Origin: an uncultured Methanosarcinales archaeon
GTDB lineage: Archaea; Halobacteriota; Methanosarcinia; Methanotrichales; Methanotrichaceae
Length of the DNA stretch: 64,000 nt
Assembly: GCA_903871465.1 (NCBI GenBank)
Contig: CAIQHB010000037.1
Location: 62,001-126,000 of the forward strand
Direction of reading: 5' to 3'
In this document: piece after piece, positions 39,461 to 47,166 of the stretch
Position numbering within the stretch: the first letter of the stretch is position 1
Layout of the letters: each line of letters begins with the position of its first letter
Position numbers and translations under genes: made by a program
The notes under the pieces: model-generated
What the model saw: the letters and a program-made list of their open reading frames with translations, nothing else
What the model was told of the DNA's origin: nothing
Databases searched by the model: none

Positions 39461-39793
39461 ATGACCCGCAATATTTTAACCGAGAAAGATCTGGATGTGC
39501 AGGAGAGAAAGGTCTTTGGCCGAATCATCGACATGTGGAGCATGGGAAGCGAGGAAGATCCCTATTCCCAGAGTACCAGGTCTGAAGTGATCAAATACTC
39601 CAAGAAGGACGAACTTACTGAGGAACAGATCTTGAAGGTCCTGGAGAACCTGGAGGAAAAAAAACTGATCCATACAGACGAGTCGGATGGCACCGCGTAT
39701 ATCAAATACAATGTCGAAGCCGTTCAGATAGTCAAAGAGCTTCAGAAAACCGCATATGTACATAGCAGAACTGAGTTCGTACCACATCATTGA
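39461..39793 (+). CDS. Small winged-helix-like hypothetical protein
   Basis: A 110-aa protein; residues ~15-95 look like a winged helix (QERKVFGRIIDMWSM, LTEEQILKVLENLEEKKLIH, GTAYIKYNVEAVQIV). GGAGGAAGATT upstream gives a good ribosome-binding site before ATG 39461. It heads a chain of four still smaller genes: its TGA overlaps the TTG of the next by 4 nt. Function unknown. Confidence 0.75.
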   Translation: MTRNILTEKDLDVQERKVFGRIIDMWSMGSEEDPYSQSTRSEVIKYSKKDELTEEQILKVLENLEEKKLIHTDESDGTAYIKYNVEAVQIVKELQKTAYVHSRTEFVPHH

Positions 39794-39879
39794 GAAAAGG
39801 TGTTCGAGAACTCTTGTTCCGGCAGCTTAATAAGCATATCAAGGAGCTGGAGGACGAGATAGACCGCCTCGAAGAATAA
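39790..39879 (+). CDS. 29-aa coiled-coil micro-protein
   Basis: A 29-codon frame starting TTG inside the stop of the previous gene (TTGA). It reads MRKGVRELLFRQL then NKHIKELEDEIDRLEE, with heptad-like spacing of hydrophobic residues, so a small helix or coiled coil. Translational coupling is the main evidence. Confidence 0.45.
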   Translation: MRKGVRELLFRQLNKHIKELEDEIDRLEE

Positions 39880-39978
39880 GATCCACCGTTAAGAAACTTG
39901 CTACCCATCATCACCTCCCTTTTGACATCCGCGCGAGATAGAACTGCCAGCGAGAAAATACATATACTAGGAGGAGAT

Positions 39979-40059
39979 ATGGAAAAGAAGGTATCAAGCG
40001 GCATATATCGAGCAGCCAGTACCATGAACAACCTTAAGACCTTGGCCCGCGGCATGTGA
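39979..40059 (+). CDS. 26-aa micro-protein
   Basis: ATG 39979 to TGA 40057. The strong Shine-Dalgarno AGGAGG lies four bases upstream. It reads MEKKVSSGIYRAASTM then NNLKTLARGM. The excellent ribosome site is hard to explain if nothing is translated here. Confidence 0.5.
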   Translation: MEKKVSSGIYRAASTMNNLKTLARGM

Positions 40060-40063
40060 TGAT

Positions 40064-40153
40064 ATGGCTGAAAAAAACCGGGTCCAAGGCAAAAGCAAAA
40101 AAGCATTGACCAAAAAGGCAAAGCAAAAAAAGAAGAACGATGTGAAGTTATGA
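40064..40153 (+). CDS. 29-aa Lys-rich micro-protein
   Basis: ATG 40064 to TGA 40151, starting 4 nt after the previous stop. MAEKNRVQGKSKKALTKKAK then QKKKNDVKL: about 40% Lys, no Cys. A 16-codon frame starting at ATG 40059 competes. It overlaps the next gene by ATGA. Confidence 0.45.
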   Translation: MAEKNRVQGKSKKALTKKAKQKKKNDVKL

Positions 40154-40260
40154 GTGAAGCCAGAGATAAAAAGATGAAACGCAAGCGCAAACTCGAAGAG
40201 TTGAAGGCCGTTAAAGTCATGAGAGCCTGCAAGTTCAGGCGGTATGACGAGAATAGGTGA
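40150..40260 (+). CDS. 36-aa Arg/Lys-rich micro-protein
   Basis: ATG 40150 overlaps the previous TGA (ATGA) and ends at TGA 40258. MSEARDKKMKRKRKLEEL then KAVKVMRACKFRRYDENR. Strongly basic with one Cys; size and charge resemble small nucleic-acid-binding or ribosome-associated peptides, but no family is recognised. Confidence 0.5.
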   Translation: MSEARDKKMKRKRKLEELKAVKVMRACKFRRYDENR

Positions 40261-40467
40261 GTCCTTCTTTTTTGTTGCGCCAAATTGATCTAATTCATTC
40301 CTATTTTTAGCTCAGATCAAATGCGGATACAATCAAGAAGAAGATGCTTTCCCATCATATGCAGCTCTGAGAGGCCAGTACACCCCTTGAGCAGATGCTC
40401 TCAAGCACCGGATCGAAGCCACCAACCACCAGGCGCCCTGGTCTACGAGGTTTAAGAGTTCTTCCGA

Positions 40468-42234: not shown

Positions 42235-44985
42235 ATGACACCCGAGGAGGAAGCCCGCCAGGAGATTGACCGTCTTTTGCAGGCAGCAGGCTGGCAGGTT
42301 CAAGATTATAGGAACCTTAACCTGGGGGCGGCGTCTGGCGTCGCTGTTCGTGAGTTTCCTCTAGAATCTGGTCGGGCCGATTATCTCCTTTTCGTTGATC
42401 GAATAGCGGTTGGAGCTATCGAGGCAAAGCCTGAAGGTACTATTTTAACCGATGTGGAAGGGCAGACTGAAAGATATCTGAGAGGAATTCCGGAGAACAT
42501 CCCGCATTTTCAAGATCCCTTGCCTTTCGAGTTCGAGAGCACAGGCGCGGAAATATATTTTGCAGACCTTAGAGATTCATACTGGCGCTCCAGGAGAGTT
42601 TTTGCTTTCTTCAGGCCCGAGACCCTGCACGATTGGATCAAGGAAAAGGATACCCTGAGAGATCGGCTGAGGAAGATGCCCAATCTCGCCAAAGCCTGCC
42701 TGAGGGACTGCCAGTTCGAAGCCATTACTAACCTTGAGCAGTCTTTCGGAGAGGGTAGGCCAAGAGCCCTCATCCAGATGGCCACAGGCAGCGGCAAGAC
42801 CTACGCCGCTGTGAACTCCGTATACAGGCTTATCAAACACGCCAAAGCTCGAAGAATCCTGTTTCTGGTGGACAGGAAGACCCTGGGTGAACAGGCCTTA
42901 AACGAGTTCAGGCAGTTCGCCACGCCGGATGATGGCCGCAAGTTCACTGAGCTATACAATGTCCAGCACATGACCTCCAACACCCTGGATAAGTCCTGTA
43001 TGGTCTGCATCAGCACCATCCAGAGAATGTTCTCCATGCTCAAGGGCCAGGAACTCGATGAGGAGCTGGATGACCAATCGAGTTTTGAATACGAGCCGGT
43101 GGAAGCTGAGCCAGTGGAGATCGAGTACAATCCTGATATTCCCATTGAATACTTCGACTTCATTATCATCGACGAGTGCCACAGGTCCATCTACAAACTC
43201 TGGAGGCAGGTTCTGGAGTACTTCGACGCCTTCCTGATAGGCATGACTGCCACTCCCTTGAAGCAGACCCTGGGATTCTTCAACCAGAATCTGGTGATGG
43301 AATACACTCACGAAAGGGCGGTAGCGGACGGGGTTAATGTAGACGGCGACATCTACAGGATCAGGACCCAGATAACAGATAACGGAAGCGTTATAGATGC
43401 GGGTTTCCCTGTCGAGAAGAGAGACCGCATGACCCGCAAAAGGCGTTGGGAGAGGCTGGACGAGCCAATCCAGTATACGAAGACGCAGCTCGATCGCTAT
43501 GTGGTGGCTCCGGACCAGATAAGGACCATCATCAAAGCCTTCAGAGACAGGCTCTTCCAGGAGATCTTCCCAGGCAGGACCGAGGTTCCCAAGACGCTCA
43601 TTTTCGCCAAGACGGATTCCCATGCCGAGGATATAGTGAACATAATCAGGGAGGAGTTCAACCGGGGCAACGAGTTCTGCAGGAAGATCACCTACAGGAC
43701 GACGGATGAGAGGCCGGACAGGATTCTGGCCAGTTTTCGCAACTCCTACTATCCCAGGATTGCGGTCACAGTGGACATGATCTCCACAGGGACGGATGTG
43801 AAGCCCCTGGAATGCCTGTTGTTCATGAGGGATGTGAAGAGTCTGGGCTATTTCGAACAGATGAAAGGCAGAGGAACGAGAGTGATCTCCTCCACGGACT
43901 TCCAGCAGGTGACGCCCGGAGTGAACCACAAGACTCATTTCGTTCTGGTTGATGCGGTAGGAGTTACGGAGAGCTGTAAGGGCGACGGGCCACCTTTGGA
44001 GTGCAAGAGGTCTGTATCTTTTGAATCCATTCTCATGTCCGTGGCCAAGGGCGTGAGGGACGAGGATACCCTTTCCACGCTGGCGGGCAGGCTGGCGAAG
44101 CTGGATCGGAAGATTGAGGAGAAGGATAGGGACGATCTGAAGGCGACGGCCGGAGGCAAGCCGCTCAGAGAGGTCATAAACGACCTCATAGATGCCATAG
44201 ATCCGGATAAGCAGGAAGAGAGAGCCAAAGAGCAATTCAGGGTCGAGAGCCCATCCGAGGAGCAGGTAAAGGAGGCGGCAAAAGAGATCGCCAAGAAGGC
44301 ATGCTTGCCCTTCGACGAGCCCACGTTCAGGAATGCACTGATCGATATCAAGAGAAAGAGCGATCAGATAATCGATAACGACTCGAAGGACCAGATTATT
44401 TACGCGGGCTACGACCCGCAGGCATTGGAGAGGGCAAAGGGAACTGTGGAGAGCTTCAAGAAGTTCATCGAGGAGAACAGGGACGAGGTCACTGCCCTGC
44501 AGATAATCTACAGCAAGCCCTACGGCCAGAGGCATTTGACCTACGAGCAGATCAAGCAGCTGGCAGAGGCAATCGAGCGCCCGCCGTACGGCCTCAATCA
44601 GAATCTGGTGTGGCAGGCTTATGAGCAATTGGATCGATCCAGAGTTGAAGGGGCTGGGCCGCAGAAGCTGCTGACCAATATTGTCTCCCTGGTGAGGTTT
44701 GCCATGGGCGAGAGCCCGATCCTGAGCCCATTCCCGGATACCGTGAACGAGAGGTTCGATGCCTGGGTCTCCCGAGCGGAGGCAAAAGGGAGGAAGTTCA
44801 CACCGGAGCAGATCGAGTGGTTTAAGATGATCAAGGAGCACATCTCAACAAGTCTGGGGATTGGGATGAATGACTTCGACTATGCGCCATTTCATGACCG
44901 AGGCGGTGTGATGAGGGCCTACAAGCTGTTCGGGCAGGACCTGGGCGGGATTCTGGATGAGTTAAACGGCGTGCTAGTAGGATAA
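42235..44985 (+). CDS. hsdR: Type I restriction enzyme R subunit
   Basis: A 916-aa HsdR: DNA translocase and nuclease. Nuclease motif: D49 in ESGRADYLLF and E63-x-K65 in GAIEAKPEG. Helicase: motif I MATGSGKT (~181-188), DEAD-box variant DECH (~313-316), MTATP (~337), and motif VI QMKGRGTR (~542). The C-terminal ~250 residues are helical and probably contact HsdM. It appears intact, so cleavage would depend on the S and M genes downstream. An antisense membrane-protein gene separates it from hsdS. Confidence 0.94.
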   Translation: MTPEEEARQEIDRLLQAAGWQVQDYRNLNLGAASGVAVREFPLESGRADYLLFVDRIAVGAIEAKPEGTILTDVEGQTERYLRGIPENIPHFQDPLPFEFESTGAEIYFADLRDSYWRSRRVFAFFRPETLHDWIKEKDTLRDRLRKMPNLAKACLRDCQFEAITNLEQSFGEGRPRALIQMATGSGKTYAAVNSVYRLIKHAKARRILFLVDRKTLGEQALNEFRQFATPDDGRKFTELYNVQHMTSNTLDKSCMVCISTIQRMFSMLKGQELDEELDDQSSFEYEPVEAEPVEIEYNPDIPIEYFDFIIIDECHRSIYKLWRQVLEYFDAFLIGMTATPLKQTLGFFNQNLVMEYTHERAVADGVNVDGDIYRIRTQITDNGSVIDAGFPVEKRDRMTRKRRWERLDEPIQYTKTQLDRYVVAPDQIRTIIKAFRDRLFQEIFPGRTEVPKTLIFAKTDSHAEDIVNIIREEFNRGNEFCRKITYRTTDERPDRILASFRNSYYPRIAVTVDMISTGTDVKPLECLLFMRDVKSLGYFEQMKGRGTRVISSTDFQQVTPGVNHKTHFVLVDAVGVTESCKGDGPPLECKRSVSFESILMSVAKGVRDEDTLSTLAGRLAKLDRKIEEKDRDDLKATAGGKPLREVINDLIDAIDPDKQEERAKEQFRVESPSEEQVKEAAKEIAKKACLPFDEPTFRNALIDIKRKSDQIIDNDSKDQIIYAGYDPQALERAKGTVESFKKFIEENRDEVTALQIIYSKPYGQRHLTYEQIKQLAEAIERPPYGLNQNLVWQAYEQLDRSRVEGAGPQKLLTNIVSLVRFAMGESPILSPFPDTVNERFDAWVSRAEAKGRKFTPEQIEWFKMIKEHISTSLGIGMNDFDYAPFHDRGGVMRAYKLFGQDLGGILDELNGVLVG

Positions 44986-45010
44986 AAAAATTGAATTCGT
45001 TGATAAATCT

Positions 45011-45550
45011 TTAAGCATTATGCAGACTTCTTATTTTCCAAACCAATTTAAGAGTAATTAATATGCTAACCAAATCTATGAAGAGCAACAAAATGAAAGG
45101 AACTGTTAAATTATAATTGAAGCTCCAATTGTTTATCCCAGTATCGTATATAAGAACTCCTATAAAGACTGCCATTAATTGTGAAAATAGAAAGATACCA
45201 CTCAGAGGCCGAACGTGAAATCTGGAATTCATTCGTAAATCTTTAAAATTTTCCCAGCTGAGCTCCAATTCGGGAATCTTTTTTTCTAGTTTTCTAAGAT
45301 ATTTTATTGTTTGCATTTGACGTTTTTCAAGATAAAACCATTCGATCTCTATTAGAGCGGCAATTGGCGGAAAAACCAAAGCCACGGATGGTGGAACATT
45401 TTTGGTCAAAGCAGCACCTAAGAATGCAGCCGCAATAGTCAAAGTCAATTGAATTATCTTTTGCCGCATTTCAAACCTCTTAATTATTTGCTCACTTAAG
45501 AATGAATACTCCATCTTTAGACCCGTTAGCTTAAGATTTTCTTGATCCAT
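45011..45550 (-). CDS. Integral membrane protein inside the RM locus
   Basis: A 179-aa AT-rich protein with about four membrane spans: two near residues 32-70 (LTLTIAAAFLGAAL, VALVFPPIAALIEIEWF) and two near 118-170 (GIFLFSQLMAVFIGVLIYD, VPFILLLFIDLVSILITLKL), with a charged cytoplasmic helix between. It runs against hsdR and hsdS. No family is recognised. It could be an accessory defence protein or a passenger gene. Confidence 0.65.
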   Translation of the reverse strand: MDQENLKLTGLKMEYSFLSEQIIKRFEMRQKIIQLTLTIAAAFLGAALTKNVPPSVALVFPPIAALIEIEWFYLEKRQMQTIKYLRKLEKKIPELELSWENFKDLRMNSRFHVRPLSGIFLFSQLMAVFIGVLIYDTGINNWSFNYNLTVPFILLLFIDLVSILITLKLVWKIRSLHNA

Positions 45551-45687
45551 GTCCGTAATTCCCTCCCGGGTCTCATCAATTGATTCCTTGGCTTAAAGCT
45601 TCCGGAGTTGATTTCATGCGTGGATCGGAATGATCGATAGATTTTTAACGATAACTTATTACTTGGATAAGCTGAAGATGACGAAGG

Positions 45688-47166
45688 ATGATGGAAGCCA
45701 ATAATTATTCACTACGGCTCCCAGAAAGATGGACATGGATAAAAGTTGGAGATATCAATAACAAATTACAGTATGGAAGCTCAGAGAAGGCAAATGGTGA
45801 TTACTCCGGCATTCCTGTCATTCGAATGGGAAATATTAAGGATAGTAAAATAATTTATGATAATCTAAAATATTTCTCATTAGACTCGCCGGATTTGGAC
45901 GAAATCTTGCTCGAAGATGGAGATGTTCTATTTAACAGAACTAATAGTCCAGAATTAGTTGGAAAAGCAGCAGTCTATAGAAATAGAAGCAATTACCCTA
46001 AAGCCGTGTTCGCTTCCTATTTAATTAGGATAAAAGTAAAAAAAAGTTTCTACGATCCTGAACTGCTATCTCTTTTTATAAACTCCTTTTATGGCCGCGA
46101 ATTCATTAAATCAGTCGTATCGCAAATGGTAGGGCAGGCTAACGTAAATGGCACAAAATTAGCTGCAATGCCTATCCCCCTCGCACCTCTAGCTGAGCAG
46201 CACCGCATCGTCGCCCGCATCGAGGAGCTATTCAGCCGCCTGGATGTCGGGGTCGAGGCGCTGCAGAAAGCCAAGGCACAGCTCCAGCGCTACCGTCAGG
46301 CAGTGCTCAAGGCAGCTGTGGAGGGCAGGCTCACTGAGGAGTGGCGGAAAACGCATCAGAATGTTGAGCTTGCGGAGACGCTGTTAGAGAGCATTTCCAT
46401 CAAGGAGGCAGAGCTGCCAGATGAAAAAAACCGACCCCAATTGCCGTATGGGTGGGCATGGGCAAGTTTAGAGCAGCTATCTGAACAGATTGTAGATTGT
46501 TTACATTCCACGCCAGAATTCGCATCTAATGGCAAATACTGTATTGATACAACGTGCATTGAGCCAGGAAGAATTCTTTTCGATAAAGCTCGTTTTGTTT
46601 CAGAAGAAATTTATAGAGAGCGGATCCGAAGATTAAAACCTGAAGCAGGTGATATCTTATTTTCTAGAGAAGGCACAATAGGTACTGCAATTACCGTTCT
46701 CAATAATGTGGAATTCTGTCTGGGGCAAAGGATGATGATGTTCAGACCATCAGATAGTATTATTCCCGCATATTTCATGTGGGCTATGCTTTCAGACACA
46801 TTCAAAAAACAATGGGAACCTAAAGTTACAGGAACAACTGCGCCTCATGTAAATATTCGAGACTTAAGAGTAATGGTTTTGCCGCTTACTTCCGTAGCCG
46901 AGCAGGTTGAAATTATTGACGAAATCGAAAGCAAACTTTCATTAACGGATGAAATTGAGCGAATCATAGGACAAAACCTCATACGAGCAGTGCGCTTCCG
47001 CCAATCCATCTTAAAATTGGCCTTCGAGGGCAGGCTCGTTCCCCAGGACCCCAGCGACGAGCCCGTCTCCGTGCTCCTGGAGCGAATTAAGACAGAAAAG
47101 GCAAAAGAATCTCCAAGAAGAGCCAGAAGAAACAACAGCATTCAGCAGATGAGGCTGATCCAATGA
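45688..47166 (+). CDS. hsdS: Type I restriction enzyme S (specificity) subunit
   Basis: A 492-aa subunit giving sequence recognition. TRD1 (~1-165, ending LAAMPIPLAPLAEQHRIV) and TRD2 (~250-410) are each followed by a conserved helical spacer (EELFSRLDVGVEALQKAKAQ and RFRQSILKLAFEGRLVPQDP). The target domains are AT-rich while the spacers are GC-rich, the expected footprint of TRD exchange. The stop overlaps the hsdM start (ATGA). Confidence 0.92.
   Translation: MMEANNYSLRLPERWTWIKVGDINNKLQYGSSEKANGDYSGIPVIRMGNIKDSKIIYDNLKYFSLDSPDLDEILLEDGDVLFNRTNSPELVGKAAVYRNRSNYPKAVFASYLIRIKVKKSFYDPELLSLFINSFYGREFIKSVVSQMVGQANVNGTKLAAMPIPLAPLAEQHRIVARIEELFSRLDVGVEALQKAKAQLQRYRQAVLKAAVEGRLTEEWRKTHQNVELAETLLESISIKEAELPDEKNRPQLPYGWAWASLEQLSEQIVDCLHSTPEFASNGKYCIDTTCIEPGRILFDKARFVSEEIYRERIRRLKPEAGDILFSREGTIGTAITVLNNVEFCLGQRMMMFRPSDSIIPAYFMWAMLSDTFKKQWEPKVTGTTAPHVNIRDLRVMVLPLTSVAEQVEIIDEIESKLSLTDEIERIIGQNLIRAVRFRQSILKLAFEGRLVPQDPSDEPVSVLLERIKTEKAKESPRRARRNNSIQQMRLIQ

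Follow-up and report, generated by a model that had tools for sequence, protein, structure and literature searches.

A very small basic protein gene, ORF5, appears to be the selected product of a short unit found in Methanotrichaceae. On our preferred reading, which we hold with a probability of about 0.6, ORF3 to ORF5 would form a small transcription and translation unit that is specific to this family and independent of ORF1. ORF5, a cationic single-helix protein of 36-48 aa, would be its main product and ORF4 a second, less constrained one. The ORF4-ORF5 pair would have landed within the gene of a 50-aa basic protein of Methanotrichaceae, here named S50, which is carried behind the tyrosine integrases of Methanothrix proviruses or integrative elements, and the truncated S50 start left behind would be ORF3. 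Ribosomes would load at a conserved AGGAGG leader, translate ORF3 or whichever short frame remains, and pass by termination-reinitiation over a 4-nt gap and then an ATGA overlap into ORF4 and ORF5, where the predicted basic helix of the latter may bind RNA, DNA or the ribosome.

The window (the whole 64,000-nt stretch analyzed) comes from a Methanothrix-type methanogen (Methanotrichaceae). Its features relevant here are as follows.

ORF1, 39461-39793, + strand: 110 aa; by its distribution in relatives a separate conserved Methanothrix gene, outside the ORF3-5 unit
ORF2, 39790-39879, + strand: 29 aa, TTG start; spurious; lies in the ORF1 3' region
Leader with Shine-Dalgarno (SD) site, GATAGAACTGCCAGCGAGAAAATACATATACTAGGAGGAGAT region, 39939-39978, + strand: conserved and common to relatives with differing ORFs behind it
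ORF3, 39979-40059, + strand: 26 aa; stump corresponding to the N-terminal half of S50, a family of 50-aa proteins
ORF4, 40064-40153, + strand: 29 aa; Lys-rich small protein, probably real, dispensable
ORF5, 40150-40260, + strand: 36 aa; basic small protein with a conserved core
3' flank of ORF5, 40261-40290, + strand: T-rich, terminator-like

A first-pass annotation had described the five frames as a single chain of translationally coupled genes. The frames of 110, 29, 26, 29 and 36 aa are all present, and so are the junctions: a TTGA overlap between ORF1 and ORF2, an AGGAGG 4 nt 5' of ORF3, a 4-nt gap (+4) between ORF3 and ORF4, and an ATGA overlap (-4) between ORF4 and ORF5. The last two products were correctly called extremely basic (pI 10.6 and net charge +10 for ORF4; pI 10.5 and +9 for ORF5). 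However, ORF2 and ORF3 are 99 nt apart, which interrupts the chain and leaves two groups of frames. No SD was found for ORF2, and no strong SD of their own for ORF4 and ORF5. The geometry alone is weak evidence, because shuffling this stretch under a first-order Markov model gave chains of three ORFs of at least 25 aa in 4% of cases and chains of two in 30%. The ATGA overlap is automatic since ORF5 always starts ATG-AGY, and so is the TTGA overlap, since ORF1 ends CAT-TGA (a conserved His-stop end common to most relatives); as gene evidence on their own, both were discarded. Real and spurious frames are told apart here by conservation in relatives, not by geometry.

By protein search, ORF5 is intact in 18 of the 26 genomes of the genus, always in single copy. 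A profile search added intact copies in two further genera of the family (G216 and G235), a shortened copy in another genus and a fragment in yet another. Across 238 genomes of the class, the same search gave nothing convincing outside the family, where matches were short, scattered and at E≥0.006. Eight genus genomes, some of them incomplete, have no ORF5 or only a broken remnant (frameshifted in G017), so that ORF5 is, judging by these absences, not essential to the genus. The conserved core reads MSEARDrKmKRxRx..xxKAxkVlRACrxRR. The window copy matches every invariant position of the alignment: the MSEARD N-terminus, K8, K10, R11, R13, K19-A20, V23, R25-A26-C27 and R30-R31.

Codon substitutions across relatives revealed purifying selection on this core. 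Over 21 distinct 31-codon cores, pN/pS in the sense frame was 0.17, against 0.81 ± 0.21 in a null of column-shuffled alignments (P≤0.001); the other sense frames gave 0.75 and 1.66 and the antisense frames 0.42 to 2.7. By its codon pattern, ORF5 is a gene that codes for protein in the sense direction and that natural selection has kept in Methanotrichaceae. The same data bear on the idea that conservation here reflects a non-coding RNA, or an antisense gene, rather than ORF4 and ORF5. A long antisense frame does exist (39732-40283, - strand, 183 aa, covering ORF2 to ORF5), but in the ORF5 sense frame the substitutions cluster at synonymous sites, the way codons vary among relatives rejects the antisense frame, and no Rfam family reached its gathering score. 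We regard this explanation as very improbable.

AlphaFold2 predicted one helix for ORF5, spanning residues 3-35 with a mean pLDDT of 84, which suggests a single cationic helix. Judged by composition only, ORF5 would most likely bind nucleic acid (RNA or DNA) or the ribosome. Searches of Pfam and NCBIfam with ORF4 and ORF5 returned no family at E≤10 and no ribosomal model, eL41 included. Nothing was found for ORF3-5 in Pfam, NCBIfam, Rfam or PDB sequence searches, the ORF4 and ORF5 representatives matched no PHROGs profile, and a plasmid DNA search gave no match. ORF5 is a new, unannotated small-protein family without a known family match. Small proteins of this kind are now recognized as common in methanogens (PMC11456600). 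In Methanosarcina mazei, unannotated sORFs have been found by Ribo-seq and shown to be translated (PMC11456600). ORF5 resembles these in being about 30 aa long and missed by annotation, and some of them are likewise conserved within one methanogen lineage. It differs in that its translation is deduced from codon selection, and in having no convincing homolog outside Methanotrichaceae among the 238 class genomes. With ORF5, Methanothrix, one of the major methanogens that use acetate, gains a small protein that is conserved and specific to its lineage. A fuller proposal can be put forward tentatively, as a possibility we do not favor: that ORF5 is the founder of a new family of tiny, basic, helical proteins. 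This family would be restricted to Methanotrichaceae and would have been captured from integrative elements or be carried by them; its translation would depend mainly on ribosomes handed on from upstream frames that are short and replaceable, and its target would be nucleic acid or the ribosome.

ORF4 is less constrained. It was matched in 13 of 50 family genomes, is broken in at least two of the 13 (G001 and G015), and has decayed in several lineages. Ten copies gave a pN/pS of 0.32 (P=0.004) in the codon-substitution test, and stand-alone copies with a different C-terminus lie away from ORF5 in L080 and L081. We take ORF4 to be a probable gene, albeit a dispensable one. We considered whether ORF3 and ORF4 are simply translated leaders (uORFs) whose peptides are irrelevant, with ORF5 as the sole gene. 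Their frameshifts, stops and deletions in relatives that keep ORF5 intact would fit, but the purifying selection on ORF4 and its occurrence alone, away from ORF5, make this unlikely.

Of the 26 genomes of the genus, 11 carry ORF1 or a homolog, its own genome counted; in a search of 41 genomes, these 11 matched, all of the same genus and with E values of 1e-32 or better. Its pN/pS is 0.31, and the C-terminal His residues just before the stop are conserved. All Pfam and NCBIfam matches were under the cut-off, winged-helix and RecX-like ones among them, and ORF1 can at best be called winged-helix-like. In the ten relatives compared, ORF2-5 are absent 3' of ORF1, and by this comparison ORF1 is a separate gene outside the ORF3-5 unit. 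A short piece resembling ORF1 residues 30-68 occurs elsewhere in the same genome (L012, G000:C73:26561-26677).

ORF2 was rejected as a gene. In the ten relatives the equivalent frame ends after 2, 2, 7, 8, 15, 17, 19, 28, 33 or 49 codons, the peptides are unrelated, the start codon is missing in some, and the SD is absent as noted above. Stops and frameshifts in relatives, which the first-pass annotation had named as evidence that would count against its genes, thus turned up in ORF2 and also in ORF3, while ORF5 stayed intact in its 18 genomes. A single coupled operon of five small nucleic-acid-binding peptides can point to the existing frames and junctions and to the basic ORF4 and ORF5. Against it stand the unconserved, interrupted ORF2, the 99 nt between ORF2 and ORF3, the location of ORF1 apart from ORF3-5 in the ten relatives compared (none of which has ORF2-5 behind it), and the nature of ORF3, a stump that is broken elsewhere. 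We give this operon hardly any credence. The claim of selection on translation holds strongly for ORF5 and moderately for ORF4, but fails for ORF2 and for ORF3 as a full gene. Within one stretch lie a gene under strong selection, another under moderate selection, a stump and a non-gene, which illustrates how real tiny frames can be separated from spurious ones.

ORF3 matches residues 1-25 of S50 at 52-61% identity and carries the S50 N-terminal pattern xKKxSSGxYRAA.... Unlike S50, it stops after residue 26, before the C-terminal half, and for that reason we read it as a truncated S50 relic and not as a full member. It is stopped or frameshifted in L062, L067 and L075. S50 itself was found in Methanotrichaceae and on one IMG/VR contig (L142), many copies being decayed. 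It directly follows a tyrosine integrase (Phage_integrase, E 3e-26) in L121, L124, L125, L137 and L142. No known family matched S50, the best PHROGs hit being only E 0.07. On the viral contig, which also encodes a D5-like helicase, S50 lies at L142:1585-1734. The integrase there (L142:662-1583) is split over two frames (662-1213 and 1200-1583), either by a frameshift mutation or by a sequencing error; relatives such as L121 have it in one frame.

ORF4 and ORF5 have no sequence relation to S50. Their surroundings suggest that they were inserted into an S50 gene: the L119 locus has the remains of an S50 N-terminus in front of ORF4 and, behind ORF5, a C-terminus like that of S50 (LLGKLKIWS*). Since this C-terminal match covers just 8 residues (E 1.7), the proposed insertion route depends on the position of the match no less than on its score. 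In local alignments, the 3' flank at 40261-40290 also resembles the 3' flanks of a decayed S50 (L140) and of a stand-alone ORF4 (L081), a likeness that is suggestive only, since the flank is T-rich.

These links raise the possibility that ORF4 and ORF5 are accessory genes of a still-moving integrative element and serve the element (for example in integration or replication control) and not the host. The S50 stump and the integrase-linked S50 copies point that way, as do neighbors that differ between clades and the L080 locus, where ORF4 stands alone close to remnants of integrases. In a tree of ORF5 (93 bases), sequences from other genera fall among those of the genus (support values 0.88 to 0.98), which hints at transfer, although the alignment is short. 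But ORF5 was absent from IMG/VR in a DNA pattern search and from the S50-bearing viral contig (possibly a fragment), it is single copy per genome, no intact ORF5 locus has an integrase of the S50-linked type beside it, and synteny is stable within clades. A gene serving a mobile element is therefore a doubtful reading, if one to be taken seriously. No neighbor gene of the ORF5 loci is conserved across clades, and no consistent tRNA marks an integration site near them.

The architecture of the preferred unit, independent of ORF1, is modular. The leader GATATACTAGGAGGAG precedes ORF3-4-5 in the window, L059 and L060, and lies directly before ORF4-5 in L064 and L065. In L070-L072 and L074, GATATTCTAG(G/T)AGGAG and variants precede a frame of three to six codons that runs into ORF5; in L073, the short frame between leader and ORF5 starts at TTG. 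Behind a common leader there are thus three arrangements (leader-ORF3-4-5, leader-ORF4-5 and leader-ORF5). Because relatives drop ORF3, or ORF3 and ORF4 together, and keep the leader and ORF5, the SD leader is retained as the intervening frames come and go. ORF4 is open up to the ORF5 overlap in L059, L060, L061, L063, L064, L065 and L119. In the clade of L061 and L063, a GGCCA...TGGCC inverted repeat (GGCCAATCCTTTTTAGTAAGGTGGCC) takes the place of the usual leader 5' of ORF4.

Coupling at -4 overlaps by termination-reinitiation has been established experimentally in archaea (PMC6728339, PMC10666635), and a spacing of about 20 nt nearly abolishes it (PMC10666635). By distance, ORF4/ORF5 (-4) and ORF3/ORF4 (+4) fall among such pairs, even though the ATGA itself is automatic. 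They resemble the known archaeal pairs in the -4 ATGA and the very short ORF3/ORF4 gap, but the frames that precede are replaceable and only a few dozen codons long at most, and the coupling between them is a prediction. Of the earlier argument from overlaps and SD, the good SD for ORF3-5 and a plausible coupling from ORF3 to ORF4 to ORF5 remain, without the overlaps as independent support. Most likely, SD-loaded ribosomes reach ORF5 through the short upstream frames, presumably by reinitiation. The leader is absent before ORF5 in L068, L078 and L118, and several ORF5 copies come with their own weak AAGGA; coupling would therefore not be required everywhere. With the natural series of leader-ORF3-4-5, leader-ORF4-5 and leader-ORF5, one can test directly what short upstream frames contribute to delivering ribosomes.

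Further 3' of the locus, the window contains type I restriction genes (42235-47166). The R subunit gene spans 42235-44985 and the specificity subunit gene 45688-47166; between the two, the opposite strand has a 179-aa frame.
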